64,000 nucleotides of DNA from Thelephora terrestris (taxonomy: Eukaryota; Basidiomycota; Agaricomycetes; Thelephorales; Thelephoraceae): the NCBI GenBank assembly GCA_015956445.1, contig WIUZ02000003.1, positions 2,604,001-2,668,000 of the forward strand, given 5' to 3'. Within the stretch, counting starts at the first letter, position 1; the number at the start of each line of letters is the position of its first letter. Below are positions 10,084 to 45,107 of this stretch, piece after piece. The notes under the pieces are model-generated. The model ran no database searches. It had not been told where the DNA came from and saw nothing but the letters and a program-made list of their open reading frames with translations. The position numbers and the translations under genes were made by a program.

Positions 10084-10850
10084 AGATGTACTAGTATGGT
10101 GCACGTGTGCCTCGTGTATGTTTTGGATCCGGATTATATAACCACAAACTATGCCTTACAGGCGTTTACAACTTTGCCCTTACCGAACAGCAGTTCGGAA
10201 ATTTGCGAGCCGCGCGGCAGAAAGGCAGTGGTGGGCGTTGTTGTGCGTGTAAAATTGTCCGCTTTACCCTCGATGCCACATATCGCCTCACTTTTAGGAT
10301 GCGGACAGCCTCACTTGCAATACTCAACTTGTGTACATGGCAGTACTTATCACTCACTGGAACCCAATCGACTCCGCGTACGATACCATATCGATATCGT
10401 TGGCCGTCACCTCGCCGAATCGTTGCGTGGTATTTCTGCACCTCCCCTCCGGACAATACTTTACGGTGAGGCGGGTTGTCGGAAAGGCCCGAAGGACAGC
10501 GCCACTCACGCAGGCTTGACCAGCTGGGATTTCCAGAAAGGCCGTATGAGCCGAGCCAAATAGATCGCCAGACCCTCGCGTCTGCCGCTGAAGAGTCAAT
10601 AATACACAGGGGCAAGATCTTATCGTCAGGTTCCTAATCTGCCTCCGTCTGGCAAGATGTAGCCTTATGGGCTCCAGCTGGCTAGATTGCCTAATATCTA
10701 GCAATTCGTGGGAATTGCTGGCAAGATCTTGTCCTCCCCAGTTTGCTGATGGGTGTGGATGATTGAGTGGCTGACACGAGGTGGAGGTGATTAAATTTTG
10801 CCGCGCGGTTGCATCATGTACAAGTATGCTCCGAGTCTGCGGACGTAAGG
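10084..10850. other. Intergenic region without a supported gene
   Basis: Short overlapping frames occur on both strands, but none has family features or consistent splice sites. GGCAAGATCTT occurs twice (near 10611 and 10720). Nothing further is seen. Confidence 0.3.
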
Positions 10851-11060
10851 AAGAGAGCGAGTGATTTACCAAAGTGTTTGAAGAGAGCGAGTGATTGACC
10901 AAAGTGTTTGAAGAGAGCGAGTGATTGACCAAAGTGTTTGAAGAGAGCGAGTGATTGACCAAAGTGTTTGAAGAGAGCGAGTGATTGACCAAAGTGTTTG
11001 AAGAGGACGAGTGATTGACTAAAGTGTCTGCAGAGGACGAGTGACTGACGAGAGTGTTTG
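10851..11060. repeat. 30-bp minisatellite, seven units
   Basis: There are seven contiguous 30-bp units, each an AAGAGAGCGAGTGATTGACC block followed by AAAGTGTTTG. The inner units are identical or nearly so and the outer ones diverge (AAGAGGACGA, CAGAGGACGA). The period divides by three, so the minus strand reads as an open 10-residue repeat (NTLVNHSLSS), but nothing else supports coding. There are no spacers, so it is not a CRISPR array. Confidence 0.9.
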
Positions 11061-11080
11061 TTCCTATGCCGGAATGTACC

Positions 11081-11110
11081 AATGCATTCTAATGCATTCT
11101 AATGCATTGA
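11081..11110. repeat. Three tandem 10-bp units AATGCATTCT
   Basis: AATGCATTCT, AATGCATTCT and AATGCATTGA follow the minisatellite by about 20 bp. Each unit contains the palindrome ATGCAT. Confidence 0.8.
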
Positions 11111-20673: not shown

Positions 20674-23600
20674 ATGTCTGGCCCCAAGAACATCCGGTGC
20701 AGGGTGAGCATTTCCATCTTCTCATCTTCCCCGCCTGAGGTCACTGCTATTCCCGATATCTATGCTGACCACTGAATTCCCCTTTCTTTCGACCACTCAC
20801 ACCGCTCGGCCTCCGCTCAATTCCAAAACTCAAACCCCTTCCAACGATCACTCCCGATTTCGGGCCCAATTCGCATCCGTCGCCGACCCACCAAACTACT
20901 CAGAATTTCAACGACGAAGGGGTCGGTGAATGTGATTCTGGGGAGTACTGCCATTTCGTTCATCCTGGTCCGAGATGGGCGAACGCACGTCCGTATGTTA
21001 CCCGTACCGGGTTCGACCACATACCGAGGTCGTACTTTGAGGGCAGTGGCGGTAGTGGCGGGGGTGTTGGTGACCGTCGAGGAAGTGGCGGCGGAGGGAA
21101 GAAGGGTCCAATTCCAAGGAGATGTCGGGTAAGCATCCTCCCCCGCTCTTTCCCTGTTTTCATCGATCTTTTTGTGGTTTCCTCCCCCTCCACCGCTTTT
21201 TATCCCCCAGGGCTTCCTTAATTTGGAGTGCTGATCGCTCACACTTCGATCATCGCTCGGACAATCTCCATCAGAGGCTTTTTTGTCCGCTATTCAAGCC
21301 TGATTTTCCTCTTTGCTCGTCTCCATTGTGTACCTCCGGATTGCATATCTAACGTGCGTTGACCCCTCCGTTGCACAGTATTACGAGTCGGACGGGACTC
21401 CGATAAGAAACGGTTGTCGCCAACACCCCAAGGGCGAATGCAAGTTCACCCATCCGGATCAGCCGGGATGGGACACGGCGAGCGCAGCGAAGAACTTTCA
21501 CTCGAACGCCAATAACCCCTCCGGAGCGACCGGCTCGAATTCCCTACCCACTGGCCTTGCTCGGGGAGGCTCGAGTTCGAGTTACACTCGAGCGAGCAGG
21601 GATACGACCGTTGACACCACGGTTGGATCCGGGACCTGGATTACGTCGGGCGAAATCCATCAGTCCCCTGATCTGAGCACTCCGACTTCGGGTTGGGGTC
21701 AGAGCGGTGGTAACGAAGCTGAGAAGTCTACGGATGGTGCCTCTGGTGGTGGTGGGTGGGGCAGTGGGTGGGGGGGAGAGACCGGCCATGGGTGGGGAGG
21801 TGAGACCAGCAACACCGCTGGTGGATGGGGAGCGAGCGAAATCGACAACACCGCTAGCGGATGGGGAGCAAGCGAAACCAATAACACCACCGGTGGATGG
21901 GGAGCGAGCGAAACCAATAACACCACTAGTGGACGGGGAGCAAGTGAAACCAACAACACCACCAGTGGATGGGGGGCAAGTGGAACCAACAACGCCGCCA
22001 GTGGATTGGGAGCAGATGAAAACAGCAACGTCAACAGTGGATGGGGAGCCGATAAAACGAGCAACACCAACACTGGGTGGGGGGCTGGTGAAACAAGCAA
22101 CACCAACAGTGGGTGGGGAGCGGGCGGAACAAACGACACCGGTAGCGGATGGGGCGGCGGAGACAGCAACGCAGGAGGCTGGGGGTCATCTACGAACGAA
22201 CCCGGTTCCGGTGGTGGTGGATGGGGGAACAGCAAAGCAGGAGGATGGAGCTCGTCAGCAAACGACTCTGGTTCGGGTGGCGGCGGATGGGGCTCCTCCA
22301 ACAAGAACCACAACACCACTGATACGACCCGGCCAGCCGCGCAGACGAAGGCCGTGGAGAACGATTCACAAGCCGCCGCTTCATCGGATAATACCTGGGG
22401 TTCGTCAGGCGGTACCTGGGGCTCAACCAACAACACTTGGGGTTCGTCCACCAACACCTGGGGCTCGACCGAGAACGCCCAGGGTCCATCTGGTTGGGGC
22501 TCCTCGGAGAACACTTGGGCCGCTTCGAACGAAATCTCAAGGCCCGAACCCGCCAGTGGCGCCGGTCCCGATAAAGGGAAGGGAAGGGAATTGAGCACTA
22601 GTTCCCAGGCCGGTGGTTGGGGTGCTTTGCGCAATACGTCTAGGGCTGTTAGTACCACCCAAGGTAACGATTTTATTTGCCTATCACGCCCCTTCCCAAA
22701 ATGGTACGCTCACGTGAGCTCCTTCGTGGCTTTACTCGTTTTCAGATTACGCCAACGTCACCCCCCGCCTCGACACTGCGCCAGCGGCCATGGTCGTCGA
22801 CAAGGAGGAGCCGCAATTCGAGGGCAAGGCGATCTTAAACGCCTTAGAGAACGCTGTTCAGAGACGCCGAAACAAGCGCAAGAGAAGCCTCGAGGATGTC
22901 AGCCAATGTCCGCGGTATTATCGTCACTTACATTCTGGAGTTGATGGCGACGGCGACGCAGCAATGGGCAGCATGACGGACCGGTCCATCCGCGACGAGG
23001 CTTTGGAAGCTGGGGAGATCGTTGAGATGCTTCCGTGTATCGAATACGACATGAACGTTCTTTCGCGAGAGCCAAAGACCTCCGAGGAGCAGACCAAATA
23101 TGCCAAACATTTACTGTAGTGAGCACGCCCTCAGAATCGTTCCCTGGGTGTTTTGCATAACCATTCGATTGTCCCTAGTCTCTTTACGGATGCCGCGGTT
23201 GCGGTGGATCGAAGCAGGAAAGCCGAGAAACGATACGAAGACTATAAGAAATTGCAAGAATCTCGGATTTACAACCATCCTGGCCGCGAAGCGCGACAGG
23301 TTCTTATGGATAAGCTTCACATGCTCCGTGGGACCTCCCACGACGAGAGCGAACGGTTGGCACGTATCATCGCGCATCTGGGAAACCTCCCATCTCATCA
23401 ACTGTCTGACGTTGTCGGGTACAACGAACACAACCACCCGACTGGAGAAACCCTCGCAGGGGAGAAGAGAAGGGCAGTCATTCTTGAGGCGGAGAACAAG
23501 TTGAAAGAGAAACATGATCATCTTGACCGGAACCTTATCGCTCTCCAGGCTAAGCTCGAGGACTTGATGAAAGAGAAGCAGGCTAGAGAGGTCAACTGTG

Positions 23601-24405
23601 GTCTTCGTCCGCCCCCCGCGGACCCCATCGAGATGGCCGTAGAGGAGGCGGTCGCCGCGCATCAGACTAACGTCCAGCGGGTCGTTGCTGTTGAGGTTCG
23701 CTTCCACTCAATCGGTCCCGACTGTGCGTCTTACCGAAGTTCGTTCTGTTGCAGAATTCGCTACAAACGATCACATCTGTGGAGGGGAATCCCCACAAGG
23801 GTGGTCTAATTCAAACCATCGAGGAGTCGCTCCCTGCCCCGGACTGTCAATCCCTGCAGCTACAAGTGTTCGCTGAAAGTATCGCGAAGCTCATTTACCA
23901 AGTTCCTGTGATCCGCCAAGAGATCGCCTCTATCAAGGTCGGCAATGACCAACGCAAAGAAGAGGAGAAAGTCGTGAGTACTGGCTTTTGCGGATGGCCT
24001 ATCTCGTGCTGAAATTCATAATAGCACGAGGAGAACGTTCGAACCCTCGATCGGTACCTAGATGCTTCCTCTGCGAAGCTCGATGCCCTTCATTCTCGGG
24101 TTACGGAACTCATCGAAGGATTGAAGCACGAGATCACAATCGAAAACGTCAAGGCCGCTGCTCAGCCAACCTTGTACGAACACACTCGTGTCATTCTCGA
24201 GGATGTAAGTGTGCATGTCGAGCGCGGAGTAGAACGCACACGCAAGGAAATCCAAAGGGAACGATCCCGGATGGAGGGGCAGATTTATGCGAGACTTGTG
24301 AATACTCAAAAGTTGTTCGAGGCCGTTGGACATTATCTGCGGTCGGTAAGAGCTGACTTGGCCTCGTTGGTGGACAAGGATATTGGCATGGGCGAATCCT
24401 CGTGA
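20674..24405 (+). CDS. CCCH-like double zinc-finger, GW-repeat, coiled-coil protein
   Basis: Proposed exons are 20674-20703, 20904-21128, 21379-22663, 22746-23115, 23179-23695, 23755-23973 and 24025-24405, giving 1008 aa with all phases closing. Finger 1 is C9-x10-C20-x5-C26-x3-H30 followed by PGPRW. Finger 2 is C84-x13-C98-x7-C106-x3-H110 followed by PDQPGW. Residues about 190-500 are a Gly/Ser/Asn/Trp-rich region with about 18 GW dipeptides plus several TWGS. The last ~450 residues are mostly charged helix, probably coiled coil (KLQESRIY, ENKLKEKHDHLD, LQAKLEDLMKEK). The next gene (24787) has the same plan without GW repeats. CCCH fingers usually bind RNA and GW arrays in other eukaryotes bind Argonaute. 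A role in RNA handling is inference. The first intron (200 nt) is the least certain. Confidence 0.65.
21826..22160 (+). repeat. 36-bp coding minisatellite (12-residue GWGA repeat)
   Basis: Within the GW gene, nine to ten consecutive 12-residue units occur: GWGASEIDNTAS, GWGASETNNTTG, GWGASETNNTTS, GRGASETNNTTS and so on to GWGAGGTNDTGS. DNA identity between neighbours is high, so the array probably expands and contracts. Two units have lost the Trp (GRGAS, GLGAD). Confidence 0.85.
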
Positions 24406-24786: not shown

Positions 24787-27261
24787 ATGGCACCAAAACA
24801 AGTGAAAGTAGTTAAATGCCTGGTACGTTTCTCGGTGGTCATTCTCCTCAGTGGTTTATCTCACGACGGGTCTTTCGTCGTTCTTCTTTGCGTGATCTAA
24901 AGTATTACAATCCGGAAACGGGAGATCCCGACCCGGCGCCGTGTCCACGAGGTTCCAAGGGCTGTTGGTACATTCATCCGAATGAACCGCAGTGGGACAA
25001 CAAGGGGAAGAGGCTGTCTTCGCCGCCGAGGAGGCTTGTTGTTGGTCGGAAAGAGAGTTTGAGCTCGAGAATCGGGAGAGGAAGAAGTAGGAGTAGGAGC
25101 AGGAGTAGGAGCAGAGGTAGGGGTAAGGCTGGGAGGCCGAGAAGTAGGAGTAGGAGTCGAAGCAGGAGCAGCGGAAGATACGTGAGTCCAAGCAGAAGGC
25201 GTCCGAGACGGTCGTCGCCGCCTCCTCCACGTCGACCACTCCATGAAAGAATTCAGCCTTCACGTTCTCCCCGCCGACCCTCTCCCTCTCGCTTGAGACC
25301 ACGAAATTCTCCGCCCCGTCATGCAAGAGACCGTCGACGGACGACAACACCGATCTCGTCGTCGAGCGGCCCTACTCCTCCGAGGGACACTAAATTGGAT
25401 AATGCCCCTCGGAGGGTGAAGGTCGAGTCTCCGGCCGACGTGGTTCCTAGCCTTTTGTCAAAATCTACTCACTCAGTGCTCAGTGGCAAGAACAGGACCG
25501 TCGCGGGGGATCAAACGCTTGTCCGGCCTACAACTTCCGTCGATCGAGACCAACAGCGGCCTTCTCTGAACTTGCCTCTGGGGGAGCAAGCCACTGTCAC
25601 TTCCGATTCTATTCTACAACCTTCACCTCAGGTGGACCCGCAGTCGTCCATATTCGCTCCCGAAACTCCAGTTATTCCCGGCCTTACGGTCTCCGCTGAC
25701 CCCACTCAAACCAGCAATTTCCCAATGTCCGCACTCCAGAGGTCATTAGAGCAAGTTATCAGAGACCAGGCGACCACACAAGTCACGGACCCATCTACCA
25801 CTACACCCGACGGAGGTCCTGCGGTATCCCATGCCGCAACTATCCCGGAAGCGGAAAAGACTGAGATTTGGACGACGCGGGTAAAGTGCGTTGACTTTGC
25901 TGGTTTCGTGAAAGGAATGTTTGACGCCTCCTTTGACAAACGTTTCTTTCAGGCTATGGGCTGACCTAATGAAAGCCAAATCCGAAGTAATGGACTGGCA
26001 AGACGAAGTGAAGATGGCTCAATCTTACAAGAACCGCGCCGGCTACGAGTCATTCTCCCCGGAGGCTCGAGCGCAAGTTGATGCTAGAGTCACGTACGCT
26101 ACAACGAACCTCGTTCAGCATCAACTCGCTTTCGAAGCAATCGTATCGCAGTCGATCGCCCTCGACAGAAACGTTTCAAAGACCTACGCCGCTCTTGCGC
26201 CTGCCCCACCCGATACACGGGCTGCGACGGCTCGTGAGATTGAATGGGTACAAGAGAAAATTCAGTTTGCGACCGTCAGGATGGATGAACTGGAGCAGAA
26301 GCTGGCTTTGCAGGACCGGCTATTGGAGCAGATAAAAGCAGAACAGGAGTCCCTTGCTGCTGCTCCTCCGCCGGCATCGTCTACCCCTCTCTCATGGTCT
26401 CCTATGGAAGTTGAAGACGGAGACGGTGTCCTTGACCACACACCCCCATTGAAGAGGAAGAGGGCGGATGACGACGACCCCAGACCTTCGTCGCGGCGTA
26501 AGTCCATGGCACGGACCATCGCTGACCTTCGAAAAGCGAACGAAACGCTTGTTGATCGGATCACGGAGGCCGAGGGAGCGATCGATGTAATTCTCAACGA
26601 CGTTGTGGAGGACTCTGAGGGCGAAGATTTATCTCGGGTCACTCGATTGAAGGAGATAGTACAGGATTATCAAACGTTCTCAGAAAGCGCGAAGACCGCA
26701 GCCGAAGTTACGGAGAGCAACTCACGGGTCGTCGTGGCTCTTACGACAGAAGCGGAAAGGGCCCTTGCGGATTGGGACGAAGTATATCAAGAATTCGAAG
26801 TGGTGCGGAAGGATGCCGCAGAAATTGACAACAGGGCAAACGGGGTGAGACACAGATTCTGGTTTTCTGTGTCTATGAGCTGAGTTGATATTCCTCCCCG
26901 ACAGCGCGTGAAAGAGATCAAGGAGAAGGAGGAGAAAATCACCTCGATGCAGCGAGAGATCGAGGCTCTCAATGCCACCGTCCAGGCATTCGTTGAACAG
27001 CAGAGTGCGCAACCTGAAGTTCCTCTGACACTGGAACAGGTCATCCAGTCGTTGAAACCCTACCTCTTGGAAGAGATGCGGGAAGCCACGCAGCCCCTAC
27101 TTAAACGGAAACACGCGGAATTGCAACACATGGTGAACGAACACATAGAGGCGGTCCGGGTGAGTGTATACGAACCTATACGCATGTCCGAGCAGGTGGC
27201 ACAAACGATGGTAAATTGGCTGGAGGCAGAGTTTGACTGCGGTAATATCAAAAGGCCTTAG
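24787..27261 (+). CDS. CCCH-like zinc-finger, RS-rich, coiled-coil protein (tandem paralogue)
   Basis: Exons are 24787-24822, 24903-25885, 25953-26844 and 26905-27261, giving 755 aa. The single finger is C11-x14-C26-x6-C33-x3-H37 followed by PNEPQW. As in the upstream gene, a phase-0 intron falls one residue after the first cysteine. Residues about 65-170 are an Arg/Ser-dipeptide region (SRSRSRSRSRG), as in splicing-factor RS domains, followed by a Ser/Thr/Pro-rich stretch. The C-terminal ~430 residues are charged helix with likely coiled coil (RVKEIKEKEEKITSMQREIE). A bipartite basic patch KRKRADDDD lies near residue 510. Nuclear RNA-related function is plausible. The exon 2 donor is GTGCGT at 25886; the nearer GTAAAG would cause a stop. 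Confidence 0.7.
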
Positions 27262-27450: not shown

Positions 27451-27538
27451 TGGACCCTCCGAGAATCGAACTCGGGACCCTTGCATGACGGGAGTTAACC
27501 TCATAAGTACAAAGCTCTACCGATTGAGCTAAGGGTCC
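27451..27538 (-). tRNA. tRNA-Ile (predicted anticodon UAU) with a ~15-nt intron
   Basis: On the minus strand the acceptor stem GGACCCT pairs with AGGGTCC, the D stem GCTC with GAGC, the anticodon stem TTGTA with TGCAA, and the T stem CCGAG with CTCGG around TTCGATT. The A box (TAGCTCAATCGGTAGAGC) and B box (GAGTTCGATTCTC) fit. The anticodon loop is CTTATG, then AGGTTAACTCCCGTC, then A. An intron after position 37 gives anticodon TAT (Ile, AUA). G at position 37 is unusual after U36, so the anticodon call is less sure than the tRNA call. Confidence 0.8.
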
Positions 27539-28229: not shown

Positions 28230-30101
28230 TTACTCAAACACTCGCGCAAGCCTCCAGCTTACCCACCCTGCTCCAGGCGAGTGCCCATCGCTTCCGGAAA
28301 CCGTCACGACAGATCCCACCTCGGGGGTAGTGTCAGAGGCGCCAATTTCTCTGATGATGTCATCCCCATTCGATGACCGGAGAACAAGGCGGGGTAAGAA
28401 GTATTTTCCGGTTGCGGTGACCACAAGTCGGTGTTCACCAGAGGGAGTTCGTAATCTCTCGAAAACCTTTTCTGGGATCGCATGAGGGTCGAAGGACAGG
28501 ATGAACCGGTTATCGTATAAAACTTCGACGCGATTCCCAGAAGGTCTCTTATTGAGGATGAGAGATGTAATATCGATATCCAATCCCAAGGAACCGATTG
28601 CACAAGTGTAGGGGGGCAATCGGGAGGCGATCCAGCCTTCAGTCCATCCGCCCCTGCTCGAGGCCGGTTTCTCACGCTTGACTTGGCCATCGGGTTTGAT
28701 GTAAACCGGTGTCCAAAGGACATGGGATCCAGCAGAGAAGGCAATCCGTTTCCCGGAGATCTTATCCGAGCAGTGGTTGAAGAGGATGGAAACGATTCGA
28801 TCCAGACTGGCTAATTTACGGGACCCTTCTGCTCTGGGTGAGCCCCACGGATGCGGGGACACGAATCTCAGGATCTGGATGACAATCGATCGCTGAGTGA
28901 GTGGATTAGTAATTTGGGAGAGTTTGTCCTGTGAGAGAAAAATTGTGGAAGGAGGTGATGGAACGGCGCAATCACGAAGGATAGTGCGAGCTAAATTGCA
29001 GACACACGTTAGTGGAGGTATGGTAAATGCGTTGAAGACCAACCTTCGGCCTCCACCATCTCGACCTCCGCTGCGTAGGCACCTGCTAACGATCGAAGGG
29101 ACTCAATCCCATCAAGAAGCATGAGAGGAACTCCCAGGCGTTCAGCATTCGCGGCTGCCCTCTGTAGCGTTTTCCCGTGACGGATAATCTTGTGTTTATC
29201 AGTACGGCATGGTAAGGCCATGAAGAAAATGCTCACGTCAGTTATCTTGCCTCTAGCAAGAGCATGCCTCACAGCGTTCCTAAACGTAACCTCTGGTTGG
29301 AAGTTCGTCTTGTCGGTTACGTACTCTAATCCATGCTCTTCACAAGTCGCAAGCACACGATCCTGCAAGGCCGGGACCCGGTCAATGGGAACGAGGGAGG
29401 ATACAGTGACGAATCAACCTTGGAGACGCCAAGCATGGGACGGATTATCCACCGCTGCATGCCATCAATCCCGTAACAACCCATCTGACCTGGTGACCCT
29501 TCACCCATTCCAAATCGCCGGAAGGGCTTCATACCACCAAGTCCAAAAAAACCCGTGCCATTTTCGAGCCTCATCAAAAGAATCTCCGACTGGTCGTCTG
29601 CGTGGTGGCCAGATGCAATGGCGTCTGCTCCGTATCGGCACATAGCAGAGAGCAACAGTGTGTACCTCGCGTCTCGGGCAATTTCTTCAAAGGATTGGCC
29701 TGGGGAAGGTTTTGCCGTATAAGGAGGAGAACCCCAAGGGATTTGCAGTGTTTCGTGAGGAATACCGAGGGAATGGGAAATATTTGCGGTCTTGAGGGAC
29801 ATCTCGGAAGAACAAGGTTGGAATTGATGATCCACGTTCAACGATATGAGCTCTCCAAACCATTTCCCCGCCTGAGTCGCGTCATTTTCTTTGACTTTGC
29901 GTAACACGTCATTCAGGAGGAATGAAAGGCATGTGGAGTCTGGTCCGCCTGAGTTGGCAATGGCTGGGGGGGCTGTTGTTAATCTCACCTTTCAACAGGG
30001 AATATATTCGTACCAAGCTTTCCGGGCCAGCCAGTGGGAGGTTTACACCTCTGAAGCATGGAGATGAACTCGCATGTTGTGATGGGTTTGACCGGTATCA
30101 T
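28230..30101 (-). CDS. TilS-like tRNA(Ile)-lysidine synthetase (PP-loop ATPase)
   Basis: Minus-strand exons are 30101-30014, 29963-29419, 29362-29237, 29188-29044 and 28990-28230, giving 554 aa. The PP-loop SGGPDS is at residues 34-39. NVDHQFQPCSSEM, the TilS signature SGHHADDQSEILLMRLENGT and FFGLGGMKPF follow, then the RPML segment and TNFQPEVTFRNAVRH. TilS adenylates C34 of tRNA-Ile(CAU) and replaces it with lysidine so that AUA is read as Ile. In fungi a mitochondrial role is expected, though no clear presequence is seen. The third intron (48 nt) has no in-frame stop. The 3' end is uncertain: a GTAAGC donor at about 28257 could join further exons near 28060-28190. Confidence 0.75.
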
Positions 30102-38111: not shown

Positions 38112-40283
38112 TCAGATCCGGTACATACCACCCCATATAGCAGGTCCAGTCACCTTACTCCATTTTGACGGTTGCATCGGTCCATACCTAATCTCCCCGC
38201 CTTGTGATGGCAGCCCCGTATTAACCTGAACTGGCGTCCGCCCAGAACCATCCTGCACGCCCGCTTGAGCGTGCGAGAAGGACTGTTGCTGTGGTTGGGG
38301 CTCACGCGCCTGGAGATGGGAATGTGGGTTCTGCTGTGGAGGTTGTGGAGGTTGCGATGGTTGGGGGTAAGAAGGCGGTAGGGGTCTCTGCTGGGCGAGA
38401 CCAGGAGGGATGTTTGGTGGTCCAGTGACGTGGGGAGGAGGTGGGCCAGGCGGCTGGTTTAATTGGTTGTGTCGAGCCTTCCAAGCCGTTCGGATGTCCC
38501 CACTTTTTTGAAGGAGCTGAATGAGAGAATGCGTCAAGAATGTGTTTCGTAAAACTAAGAGTCGTGGGGGGACTCGTACCGCCTCTTTTTCAACGCCATC
38601 ACGTATGCTCACTATCACGCTCTCTACGGTGCTGATGTGGTTCGCTGTCGGCTTGTCGTCCCTAAATCGCATCATCTTCCATCCCTCCACGGCGGGATCC
38701 CAATGCACCTCGACGATCCTCTCCTCGAACTGTTCACCTGATACTTTCATCCTATGGACAAAGATAGCATACATCTTATGAGCACAAAGCAGAAAGTAAA
38801 GCGGATGAGTCGCAAACATTTACATACCTTTCCCACTCGTCATCTGTGACGTGCATAACGTCGTATGGTTCGTACTTCGCTTTCGGTCCCTCCCCTCCCA
38901 ACCACGCGTACAACGCAAACACGGGCTTCGCAAAGAAATCTGGTTGGGACGGGTCGTTTGGAGAAGGAGGGAATTTTAACATCAATTTGAAGTCGATTGA
39001 GTTTTCGGATGGTGGTTTCCATTTCAATCTGAAAGGGAGCAAAATAACCAAGAGGGGGGGGAGAAGAGGGACGGAGAATAAACGTACATGTTTTTGTCGG
39101 TACCTGGCGTGTAGGGTGTCGTGACGCATGTGTAGATCAATCCATCGTTCCCGTGGTGCGAAGCCGGAATGTCAATTTCGAAGACCTTTTCTAGGTGATA
39201 CGACAGGTTCGTCTCCTTGACGGCGATTCTGACGGAATCCAGCAGGTCAGAAGATCTTCGTAACCGGAAGCCATGTGCGGAGGATGGGTCTCACCGGAAT
39301 GGATGCTGGGCGGCGACCTGAGGGAACTGGGTAAGCATCCGCTGGTATGGTTTATAGAACCAATCCTTCAGCCGCTATAAGAAACAAAGATGTTGAGTGC
39401 TTCAAGAGATGGGGCAGGTCGGGTGAGTGTGCTTGCATACACCATACCGCTTGTCCAATGTCCTCCTCATCACGTTCTGGTCATCGATCACTAAGCAGTC
39501 GAAACACAGATACCGCAAGGTTTCCTATCCTTGGAGGTTAAACAATGCTTTATGAGGGAGAGAACGAGGGGCCCTTGCAATTCTCGTTTGAGGGTCAACG
39601 TCCAGAACCAATTCTCCATCCACCAGCGAGTTCTTGAGAGGAAGGCGGGGATCTTCGTGGTGAGGGAAGTAGAATCCTTCGATTTGATAGTAGTTGTTGT
39701 GTCTGTCCAGCTGTTTCGGTCCAGAAATTTCAAGGGCGGAATCCGGACGTGGATATTGTAGGAGCTCAGAGACCAGCAAGAACTCGACGTACTGTGCGCA
39801 CGCACCAAAAACACGGTCTGATTTTCCCCCAGAGTCGAGACGAACAACAGCACACGAATACCGTCCGACTTCTCGCACACCCAATAGCTGACGAAGCGTC
39901 GCGCTCAGTACATATTTACTTGACACCGAGATTGGAGGATAGGGATAGAGTGGGGGGCGGGGACTGACTCATCCTTGATCAACCTTTGGATGTCGAGCGT
40001 TGTAAAGCTGACGGGCTGAGCGCCAGGAAACCGACTGAACGTTGGATCATCCGCGTACAATGAATCCACCGAAGGTCAAAGCATGAGAGAGTGATGTATG
40101 GACGCGTGGATGAGGGGCGGGAGCGGAGAGGCATGTTAGCCTGAGCCGGAACGGATGGAGAGGAACAAGATGGCCGGACTTGCTGGTAAGGTTACAGAGC
40201 TCGCTCACAGCTTTCCTTAACCATTGGACGTGATCTGAACCGCTCGGAAGGAGATACCCTGGCAGATCAGGGATACGAGGCAT
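38112..40283 (-). CDS. CEG1: mRNA capping enzyme guanylyltransferase subunit (Ceg1)
   Basis: Minus-strand exons are 40283-40180, 40034-39969, 39887-39806, 39710-39579, 39524-39441, 39374-39295, 39228-39088, 39028-38828, 38751-38580 and 38516-38112, giving 488 aa. The nucleotidyltransferase active site is WVCEKSDGIR (K63 forms the GMP adduct). QIEGFYFPHHEDPR, SLVDGELVLDVDP, RYLCFDCLVIDDQN and GNDGLIYTCVTTPYTPGTD follow, then LKWKPPSENSIDFKL. The OB-fold end contains MRFRDDKPTANHISTVESV. A Pro/Gln-rich tail of about 90 residues ends YGPMQPSKWSKVTG. Ceg1 caps nascent Pol II transcripts with the triphosphatase Cet1. The intron after DVDPQTRI starts GC (GCAAGG); it joins directly to the conserved ETLRYL. 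Confidence 0.93.
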
Positions 40284-42122: not shown

Positions 42123-45107
42123 ATGGGGGAAGCAATCATCAACCAAGGGTACACCAATCTCACTATCATCTGCCTTTGACTTTTGCTAACCATGTTCCTC
42201 CCTGTGCTTGCAGTTCGGAGGATGCTGTGCTGAAAGCATTGCCACCTCTCTTTTCAAGTCTCCTCGGGGCAGGTTACACCTCTCGCACTGAGTTCTACAA
42301 TAAATTCCAGCGTGTAGCTGACGACAACGACAAAAACTTTATTCAAAAACACAACGAGGAATTGAACAGCACATTAATCTTTGTGTGTATTTTCTTATGT
42401 CCGCACTGAGCTTATCGTGAATTCCATGTTGACCTGGGGAACAGGCCGGTTTATTCTCCGCGGTCACATCCACTTTCATCGTTGACATTCAAAGCGAGCT
42501 CGGACCGGATTTTGAAGAAATGAATCATTCCCTACTCAAGATTATCGCCAGCGCTGCGCTTGGGAATATCCCAACTGGTGCTGATGCTGCGTTCCCTCAA
42601 TGGAATGGCCCAGATCCCACAATCATCCGCGTTCAAGCCATCCTCTACTCGAGTTTGTTCGCTTCCCTCCTTGCCGCATTATTCGCCATGTTGGGTAAGC
42701 AATGGTTGAATCGCTATGCATGGGTGGATTTTGGATCTGTCGTGGATCGGAGTCGACTCCGGAAGCATAAAATGGACGGAATGGAGACGTGGAATTTCGG
42801 ACTTGTGATGGGATGTTTACCTCTTATCCTCCAAGCCGCTCTTTTCCTCCTCAGCTATGCACTCTCCGAATGCCTCTACTTCGTCAACAAGGTTGTTGCC
42901 AGCGTTATCGCCGCCTTCCTTGCATTTACGATTATCTTCTACATCCTCATTGTCTCCGTCGCAACCTTTTCCTACAACTGTCCATTCCAAACTCCCCTAT
43001 CCGTCGTCCTTCGCACATTAATCCGCTTAGACCGCCAAAAAAACAAGTACCTCGAAAGATCCGTAAAGTGGCTCGGACGCCTCCTTTCCCAAATGAAGAA
43101 AGGATGGCTGAGAGCGGTGTCTGTCCTCCTCTCTGGTTCGAGTGGGTCTGGTGCACCGGATTGGGACACCGTTGGTGGCATCGAGTTACTCATGACCACC
43201 CCGTTTGGTCAGCCACCCCCACTCTTCAATTACGAGATTGACCGGGATGGTTTTGCGGTGGACTCCAGTTGTATCGTTTGGATGTTTAAGAAGCCAATGG
43301 ACACAGACGTCGCCGTTGCTGTGACGAGGTTCATCCCCGAGATCGTCTGGCACCCTGGCATTAATGTCACCCCACTGAAGAAGCTTTATGACACAGTCCT
43401 AGGATCCTTCGACCTGCGTTCTACTGGGCGCCTTATTCTGAAACCGGTGTTAAGGGATAGCGTTTACCTCAGTGCCAAGGCTTTCCTTCACATTTACATC
43501 CAGCGCAAGTGCCTTGGGAACGGGTCCGAAGAAGCGGTGTTCGAGTCCATCTTGAGCCGGCATCAACCCATGGCCAAGCATTACAAAGGGGACCCAGACC
43601 TGGAATCCATTCTTGGCGTTATCGACTGCGCCATCGGTGACTTCTTCCTCGATTTTGGTGATTCAAGTTCAATGCGATGGCAGCACTTCTCCTTTACCAT
43701 TCCACACCATACTTGGATGAGCCATATTCTCCTCTATTGGGCCTTTGATGTTTACAGGAAACACAAAATTCTACCTGGTGTTATCAAAGGATTCGTCCTT
43801 CACTCCGTTCGATCGGTCCCTCTCCCTCCAGCGCCGATCATAGCAGACTGTCTCTTCATCGTTGGACTGGGCCTAGGAATCCAACTACATTGTAATGACC
43901 TGGCTGTCCTGGACAAGAGGTGAGTTGATTCACGCTGTGTTTGCTATGTAATGAAGCTGGAAGGGTCTATTGCAGTCATGGGATCAACATTCAGATCAAC
44001 AGGATCTACGAGAGGCTTCCCCAGATTCTGAGGGCTTCCACAACTAAAGAGATCGACCAAGCTCTGTTGGCAATGGAGGTCATCACTTCCATCTCTGAGG
44101 AAATATCTTCTCCAATATCTGGAAGTCCCCTCCCTCAAAGGTGTTATGACTTGTTCCGTTCCATCAGGCAAGTTCCCATATCCCTTGCATTTTCCCGAAA
44201 GAAGATGTGGGAGGCTTCTCGCCTAGCCATGCACGGCGCCTACAAGCGAGACAAGTTTCTGCCGTTGGTCGGAGATCCTCAAGACTTACTCGATTTCTTG
44301 AAACTTCACTTCGACCTAGCCACCCAACACGGTCAAAATCAGGATGAACCGATTCAAGACGCTTTGCGCGCGCTCGCTTACGCCTCCGGTCCCGACACCA
44401 TCAACGCGCTCAAGTCTTTCGACCCGACCGAAACCTCCTTCGTCCACGGAGTCTGTTACGCATACCACGACGGGAGGCCGGCCCAGCTTCACAAAGCTGC
44501 CCTCTTCCTCCTTCCTCTCATTGGTGACGGGTGGTTCAACACCCCTCATCCGATCATGGGGACTGATCAAATGAGGAGATTTTGCGCAGATTGGGTTTCT
44601 GTAGTAGATGATGTTGAGCACACGCGCGACGCCCATCAAGCGATCCTCGCGACCCTCTTTTATATGATCAACTCCCCTCACTGGCGTCCCCACATCGTCA
44701 CAGATAGCTGGAAACTGTTGGAGTACCTCACTTCGGTTCCGGACGACTCTCAGCCTCTGAGGAGGTGCCTCGACAACCCAGCGCTGACTACCGCAATTTC
44801 GGAGGTAGAAGATCCGGCCGCTGTCTTCCTTTGGTCGAAGATCCTGTGGTTGAAATACGCGGAATTGGCCCCTGAGGTTCGAGAGCAGTTGGAGACAGTC
44901 ACGAGAGAGCTCGCCCAGAGTGGGAGGGGGACGGACCTTGACAAGTATCTGGAAGCGATGGATTTCGAGTTGAGGAAGGCTGAGGGTGTGTTGAACCAGT
45001 ATCATACGCAACCCACTGAGCCAGCGGTCAACGCCCTCAAGGCTAAGATCGAAAACCTCCAACAAGCCAGGAGATCCTTGACCGCTCTCAAGGAAGATAC
45101 ACCTTGA
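42123..45107 (+). CDS. DUF6535-family integral membrane protein
   Basis: Exons are 42123-42148, 42214-42382, 42445-43919 and 43976-45107, giving 933 aa. The N-terminal DUF6535 region has the motif order of this Agaricomycete family: EFYNKFQRVADDNDKNFI, AGLFSAVTSTFIVDIQSEL and a first hydrophobic segment. Further membrane helices are at about 129-149 (ILYSSLFASLLAALFAML), 182-205 (FGLVMGCLPLILQAALFLLS) and 215-240 (VVASVIAAFLAFTIIFYILI). KQWLNRYAWVDF lies in between. The remaining ~690 residues are soluble, alpha-helical and not assignable, ending in a short coiled coil (LKAKIENLQQARRSLTALKE). The family is large and of unknown function. The first exon is only 26 nt and is the least certain part. 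Confidence 0.8.

Follow-up and report, generated by a model that had tools for sequence, protein, structure and literature searches.

Which partner, if any, reads the tryptophans of a long GW/WG array that lies between two zinc-finger-like motifs and a helical C-terminus in a protein of the fungus Thelephora terrestris? The array was found in the window, i.e. the whole analysed stretch of 64,000 nucleotides (contig C23:2604001-2668000 of a genome of 40.6 Mb in 60 contigs), to which all positions below refer unless another contig is named. Our answer is a tentative one, possible rather than probable: we lean towards a fungal CCCH-type RNA-binding adaptor that would recruit mRNA-decay machinery, most likely via Not9 of Ccr4-Not.

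In the plus-strand frame, exon 3 encodes 429 residues with 25 W, 19 GW (one of them in the tail of finger 2), 21 WG, 17 GWG and 4 TWG. About 18 GW and several TWG had been claimed for 21700..22650 in the earlier note, and our count for this interval (317 codons), 17 GW and 4 TWG, agrees well with that; its view that the array is partly a 36-bp coding minisatellite is likewise borne out by Tandem Repeats Finder (Table 1). In 321 consecutive residues, of which 23 are W and 79 are G, there are 18 GW and 21 WG, counts that were attained in none of 10,000 composition shuffles (means 5.6 and 5.7; maxima 13 and 15). The spacing from W to W is 12 in 6 of the 24 gaps of the array, and W is present in three unlike repeat types (36-bp, 66-bp and 21-bp); the in-register codon that follows the 21-bp repeat (22480) encodes Q. 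Elsewhere in the window there is no stop-free stretch of at least 60 codons with at least 5 GW/WG. As a separate observation, a 30-bp tandem repeat (10850-11060; 7.0 copies, 94% matches) lies within a minus-strand open stretch (10357-11088) that begins with a 10-residue NTLVNHSLSS-like repeat.

Table 1. Positions of the modelled exons, the repeats, the neighbouring gene and further GW-rich reading frames of the same genome
Feature	Position	Strand	Content	Basis
Exon 1	20674..20703	+	start codon through first Cys of finger 1 (MSGPKNIRCR)	splice model
Exon 2	20904..21128	+	completes CCCH-like finger 1 (C-x10-C-x5-C-x3-H); spacer rich in Gly; opening Cys of finger 2	splice model
Exon 3	21379..22663	+	remainder of finger 2 (C-x13-C-x7-C-x3-H) and GW/WG region, disorder judged from composition	
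Exon 4	22746..23118	+	charged linker including basic RRRNKRKR	splice model
Exon 5	23179..23695	+	helical region	splice model and AlphaFold2
Exon 6	23755..23973	+		splice model
Exon 7	24025..24405	+	long helices, possible coiled coil, stop codon	splice model and AlphaFold2
36-bp coding minisatellite	21805..22154	+	9.7 copies, 12-residue unit like SGWGASETNNTT	Tandem Repeats Finder
66-bp repeat	22163..22292	+	2.0 copies, GGW motifs	Tandem Repeats Finder
21-bp repeat	22414..22470	+	2.7 copies, TWGS motifs	Tandem Repeats Finder
Adjacent paralogue	24787..27261	+	a single finger of this type, linker rich in Arg/Ser, GW/WG absent	gene model and finger match
L045	G000:C1, about 1.059 Mb		405 aa, 10 GW/WG	
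L046	G000:C1, about 4.024 Mb		324 aa, 10 GW/WG	
L058:1-2190	G000:C45, about 2.435 Mb		730 aa, 16 GW/WG, highly charged N-terminal part	

All pN/pS figures derive from 10 in-register 36-bp units that are related by descent and non-independent, so that they are indications and no tests: between units, the value is lowest of the six frames in the array frame (0.48; 0.61, 0.74, 0.85, 1.12 and 1.17 in the others), which looks like the coding frame, and a wrong reading frame for the array was rejected on this ground. Within this frame pN/pS amounts to 0.14 in the G-W-G columns versus 0.56 in the other nine, and the nonsynonymous rate of the G-W-G columns is the second lowest among 220 column triplets (the lowest triplet, G, G, A, does not include the W). 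Eight of the 10 units retain W in its column, the remaining two having R and L; one Asn column is likewise retained in 8, the Ala column in 9 and both Gly columns in all 10. There are thus indications of constraint on the repeat units, clear for the Gly flanks and only moderate for W. This unit-to-unit comparison serves as a proxy for the orthologue comparison suggested in the earlier note. The low value in the G-W-G columns and the recurrence of W in three unlike repeat types favour a Ccr4-Not adaptor, while the loss of W from two units and its absence from the lowest triplet disfavour it.

The same repeats suggest another explanation, namely a low-complexity linker, enlarged by a minisatellite, that would provide general stickiness (condensates, RNP granules) or have little function, with no specific tryptophan receptor. 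Tandem repeat expansion is indeed seen, two of the units have swapped W for R or L, and W is kept no better than the neighbouring Asn. The pN/pS values, overall and above all in the G-W-G columns, argue against such drift, although they come from few and related units, as does the recurrence of W across different repeat types. We regard a drifting or sticky linker as possible, only slightly less so than the Ccr4-Not adaptor.

The exons around the observed array are modelled. Built without transcripts from splice-site consensus and open frames, the model gives a plus-strand gene at 20674-24405 with seven exons and 1009 aa, in which two CCCH-like fingers are followed by a W-rich linker and a helical C-terminus; this arrangement is one reason to favour a Ccr4-Not adaptor. 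AlphaFold2, run on single chains without alignment, predicts helices in exon 5 (mean pLDDT 70.9, pTM 0.28; best helix at residues 92-139) and exon 7 (mean pLDDT 86.6, pTM 0.43; helices at residues 2-36 and 39-122). When exons 4-7 were compared with solved structures, the best match had E=0.31. No relatives of exon 7 were confirmed in prokaryote or virus contig collections, as expected of such collections, and in its own genome it found besides itself only two weak matches (E=0.07 and 0.9), at loci where a scan showed neither GW nor fingers. Exon 3 matched only itself in the genome.

The earlier note had coupled a GW platform to putative RNA-binding fingers. The array is real and adjoins CCCH-like fingers, so this part stands; the fingers themselves, however, stay below the threshold, with the zf-CCCH profile (PF00642) matching the N-terminal 132 aa at E=0.018 and 15.4 bits (curated cut-off 20.5) and no match listed for the full-length 1009 aa. 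A match to a MEX-5 finger was found at E=0.025. When the three finger exons (two in the GW gene, one in its neighbour) are aligned, all of them share Cys, Cys, His-Pro, Pro and Trp (a HPxxPxW-like tail); the first Cys of each finger is encoded in the preceding exon, and in all three a modelled phase-0 intron splits the finger right behind this Cys and one further residue. On this evidence, 'CCCH-like' is a fair name, and the protein probably binds RNA. The sub-threshold score and the unusual spacing of finger 2 nevertheless count against a Ccr4-Not adaptor. A single-finger query against the genome returned only itself, and at the 27 zf-CCCH matches listed elsewhere in the genome we found no GW-dense ORF (stop-free for at least 40 codons, at least 4 GW/WG) within the 3 kb scanned per locus, exons farther off lying outside the scan; this is in line with a drifting linker.

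Since Nup42 also consists of a CCCH finger and dipeptide repeats, a CCCH-like finger joined to a dipeptide-repeat linker could mark a nucleoporin-like mRNA export factor after the manner of Nup42, with GW in place of FG. This seems highly improbable to us, as the dipeptide is GW rather than FG, the protein has two fingers and a long helical C-terminus, and no nucleoporin-type Pfam match is listed for it.

The gene directly downstream (Table 1) also bears on the Ccr4-Not adaptor. Its finger matches the GW gene by BLASTP (E=1e-4, 39% over 36 columns), the C-terminal parts of the two match weakly (E=0.4 to 1), and it contains 9 W overall, with 0 GW and 0 WG. We take the two genes to be tandem paralogues with unlike linkers, the neighbour being a diverged duplicate. 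The lack of GW/WG in this paralogue disfavours a family-wide Argonaute role and also speaks against the Ccr4-Not adaptor; its Arg/Ser-rich linker would suit a drifting one. Several other features were noted further downstream in the window: a tRNA at 27451-27538, called His with anticodon ATG in a bacterial-mode scan, the odd anticodon possibly reflecting an unrecognised intron; a minus-strand PP-loop match at 29329-29991 (ATP_bind_3, E=2.3e-26), presumably TilS-like, with an adjoining minus-strand open stretch (28233-29102) that has no Pfam match; an mRNA capping enzyme C-terminal domain at 38115-38819 (E=5e-20); and a DUF6535 at 42433-43920 (E=1.2e-28).

Searching the genome for DNA that would encode three GW at spaced positions gave 16 matches, 8 of them inside the array, compared with 18 for the reversed control; outside the array the pattern is no more frequent than expected by chance. 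The 8 outside matches fall at six places, and 3 of the 5 places examined carry stop-free stretches with at least 10 GW/WG (L045, L046 and L058), for none of which Pfam lists a match up to E=0.1. L058 is a further candidate GW protein. That GW-rich ORFs occur at these loci as well would again fit a repeat without a specific receptor.

The earlier note had proposed Argonaute as the receptor. On this reading, the array would be an Argonaute-binding GW/WG platform that carries Argonaute to finger-bound RNAs as GW182, Tas3 or Gwo1 might. Dense GW/WG motifs in a low-complexity context and the recurrent W-W spacing of 12 count in favour of such a platform. Argonaute genes, whose absence from the genome the note would have held against its proposal, are present: PIWI matches (13) lie at five genomic places, RdRP matches (20) at seven and Dicer-dimer matches at two, a presence that likewise speaks for the platform. 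On C9, two Argonaute-like pieces (L004 and L008, G000:C9:383149-387055) show shifting frames and a stop near the DVT motif, which may reflect a decayed gene or introns.

The tryptophan pockets themselves fit less well. Human AGO2 residues P590, F659, K660 and E695 were derived from ALG-1 residues (PMC5147811) by a shift of 143, which is itself inferred, and P590, K660 and R688 were also taken from constructs named in PMC11336974; they were read from pairwise alignments at 4 of the 5 places (the one on C12 was left out). F659 and K660 are kept in none of the four scored Argonautes, and R688 in two of four. Of the three Argonautes scored at E695, none keeps it; an insertion makes the column uncertain in two of these, and the C9 copy aligns too poorly there. 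P590 is kept in 2 of 2, the C9 copy (broken frame) and the second C6 copy (motif not found) being excluded. In our alignment, Neurospora QDE-2 has Ser-Leu in place of Phe-Lys, the same as the main Argonaute of T. terrestris. The Ago_hook profile (PF10427) is built on animal GW182, so that its miss is weak evidence: it is not among the matches that the 1009-aa protein gives up to E=10, and nothing was found in the genome, where the control stayed silent too and the search thus shows little.

A 2025 survey describes the tryptophan-docking sites of fungal Argonautes as remarkably variable, the third pocket being better kept than the second, and also reports GW proteins that act with Argonaute in fungi (PMC12477606). 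In Cryptococcus, also a basidiomycete, Gwo1 was found in a complex with Ago1 in P-bodies (PMC6643885), and GWC1 and GWO1 are listed among the RNAi proteins as a 'GW/WG protein' and as 'GW182-like', next to the zinc-finger protein Znf3 (PMC4778953). As a class, an 'undescribed' GW-type silencing protein is therefore too strong a claim. Among the literature titles listed, none concerned a mushroom CCCH protein with GW motifs. The changed pockets, the variability of the fungal docking sites, the Ago_hook miss and the GW-less paralogue lower the Argonaute reading, and the retained P590 and R688 residues and the fungal GW proteins reported with Argonaute keep it standing; we consider it unlikely but not negligible.

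For tryptophans next to CCCH fingers, Not9 of Ccr4-Not is documented as an alternative receptor. In CNOT9, Y203 and R244 form tryptophan pocket 1, and R205 and H208 form pocket 2 (PMC11009413). Matches to Rcd1/Not9 occur at one place in the T. terrestris genome, and the exon there keeps three of the four tryptophan-pocket residues (Y203, R205 and R244), with Ala in place of H208; the residues are named after the same source and their numbers placed by letter spacing. Many residues of the Not9 site are called invariant across eukaryotes in a paper that also reports that a W motif in S. pombe Puf3 contributes to Ccr4-Not stimulation and predicts it at the Not9 pockets, with a confidence that is not high (PMC12819147). 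One W in a disordered region of Unkempt, a metazoan protein with CCCH clusters and a C-terminal coiled-coil dimer, is predicted to enter the CNOT9 pockets (PMC11009413), and GW182/TNRC6 has been placed on the same pockets (PMC5303829). For TTP, mutation of four W (4xW/A) abolished NOT9 binding, yet deadenylation in vitro was still stimulated, and these tryptophans are described as poorly conserved and missing from two family members (PMC12350847).

Taken together, the three pocket residues kept in the fungus' own Not9, the W-dependent Not9 contacts documented for TTP and predicted for Puf3 and Unkempt, and the poorer fit of the Argonaute pockets favour a Ccr4-Not adaptor. Against it stand the changed H208, the activity of the TTP mutant along with the poor conservation of its tryptophans, and the fact that the known Not9 partners, as far as the sources describe them, carry between one and four W rather than a GW array; GW/WG motifs set among Gly, Ser and Asn resemble GW182 and plant Argonaute hooks more closely. 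Between the two receptors, layout and pocket residues make the Ccr4-Not adaptor better supported than the Argonaute platform.

In such an adaptor, the two CCCH-like fingers would bind RNA, the helical C-terminus may cause dimerisation, and the long GW/TW-rich linker would offer many weak, exchangeable tryptophan contacts that could tether mRNA-decay machinery, most likely at the Not9 tryptophan pockets in Ccr4-Not. The 36-bp minisatellite would have been the route by which much of the array grew, its G-W-G core being mildly constrained. Both receptors could also be joined in an independent fungal GW182-like bridge, in which the array tryptophans bind Argonaute as well as Ccr4-Not, the CCCH fingers pick the RNA and the tandem duplicate is Arg/Ser-linked. 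We think this improbable; if true, small-RNA silencing and sequence-specific mRNA decay would converge in one fungal protein. To our knowledge, the use of GW proteins in fungi seems to have received little study outside Cryptococcus and, in fission yeast, Tas3. A CCCH protein with dense GW motifs beside a GW-less duplicate offers a natural test of the role of the tryptophans, and, through the same pair, of their recognition by fungal Argonaute or Not9.

We liken the protein to Unkempt and TTP by its apparent design and claim membership in neither family. Tristetraprolin (TTP/ZFP36) has four W without a GW array, and we know of no coiled coil in it. Our protein, with its two CCCH-like fingers and presumably disordered linker, resembles it in that TTP has CCCH fingers in tandem, flanked by disordered stretches that contain W; the W of TTP are required for NOT9 binding, and it bears a C-terminal NOT1-binding motif in addition (PMC12350847). 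GW182/TNRC6 and the plant Argonaute hooks share the reiterated GW/WG in a disordered stretch; they differ in that no Ago_hook is listed for our protein and the hAGO2 pocket residues are mostly not kept in the scored Argonautes of its genome. Cryptococcus Gwo1 and Gwc1 are basidiomycete GW/WG proteins too, compared here by description only, and the available text of the two papers mentions no CCCH finger for them (PMC4778953, PMC6643885). Unkempt has two finger clusters and a single W (W622) in its disordered region, and it shares with the protein described here the order of CCCH fingers, W-motif disordered region and C-terminal coiled coil, the last being a possible one in our case (PMC11009413).
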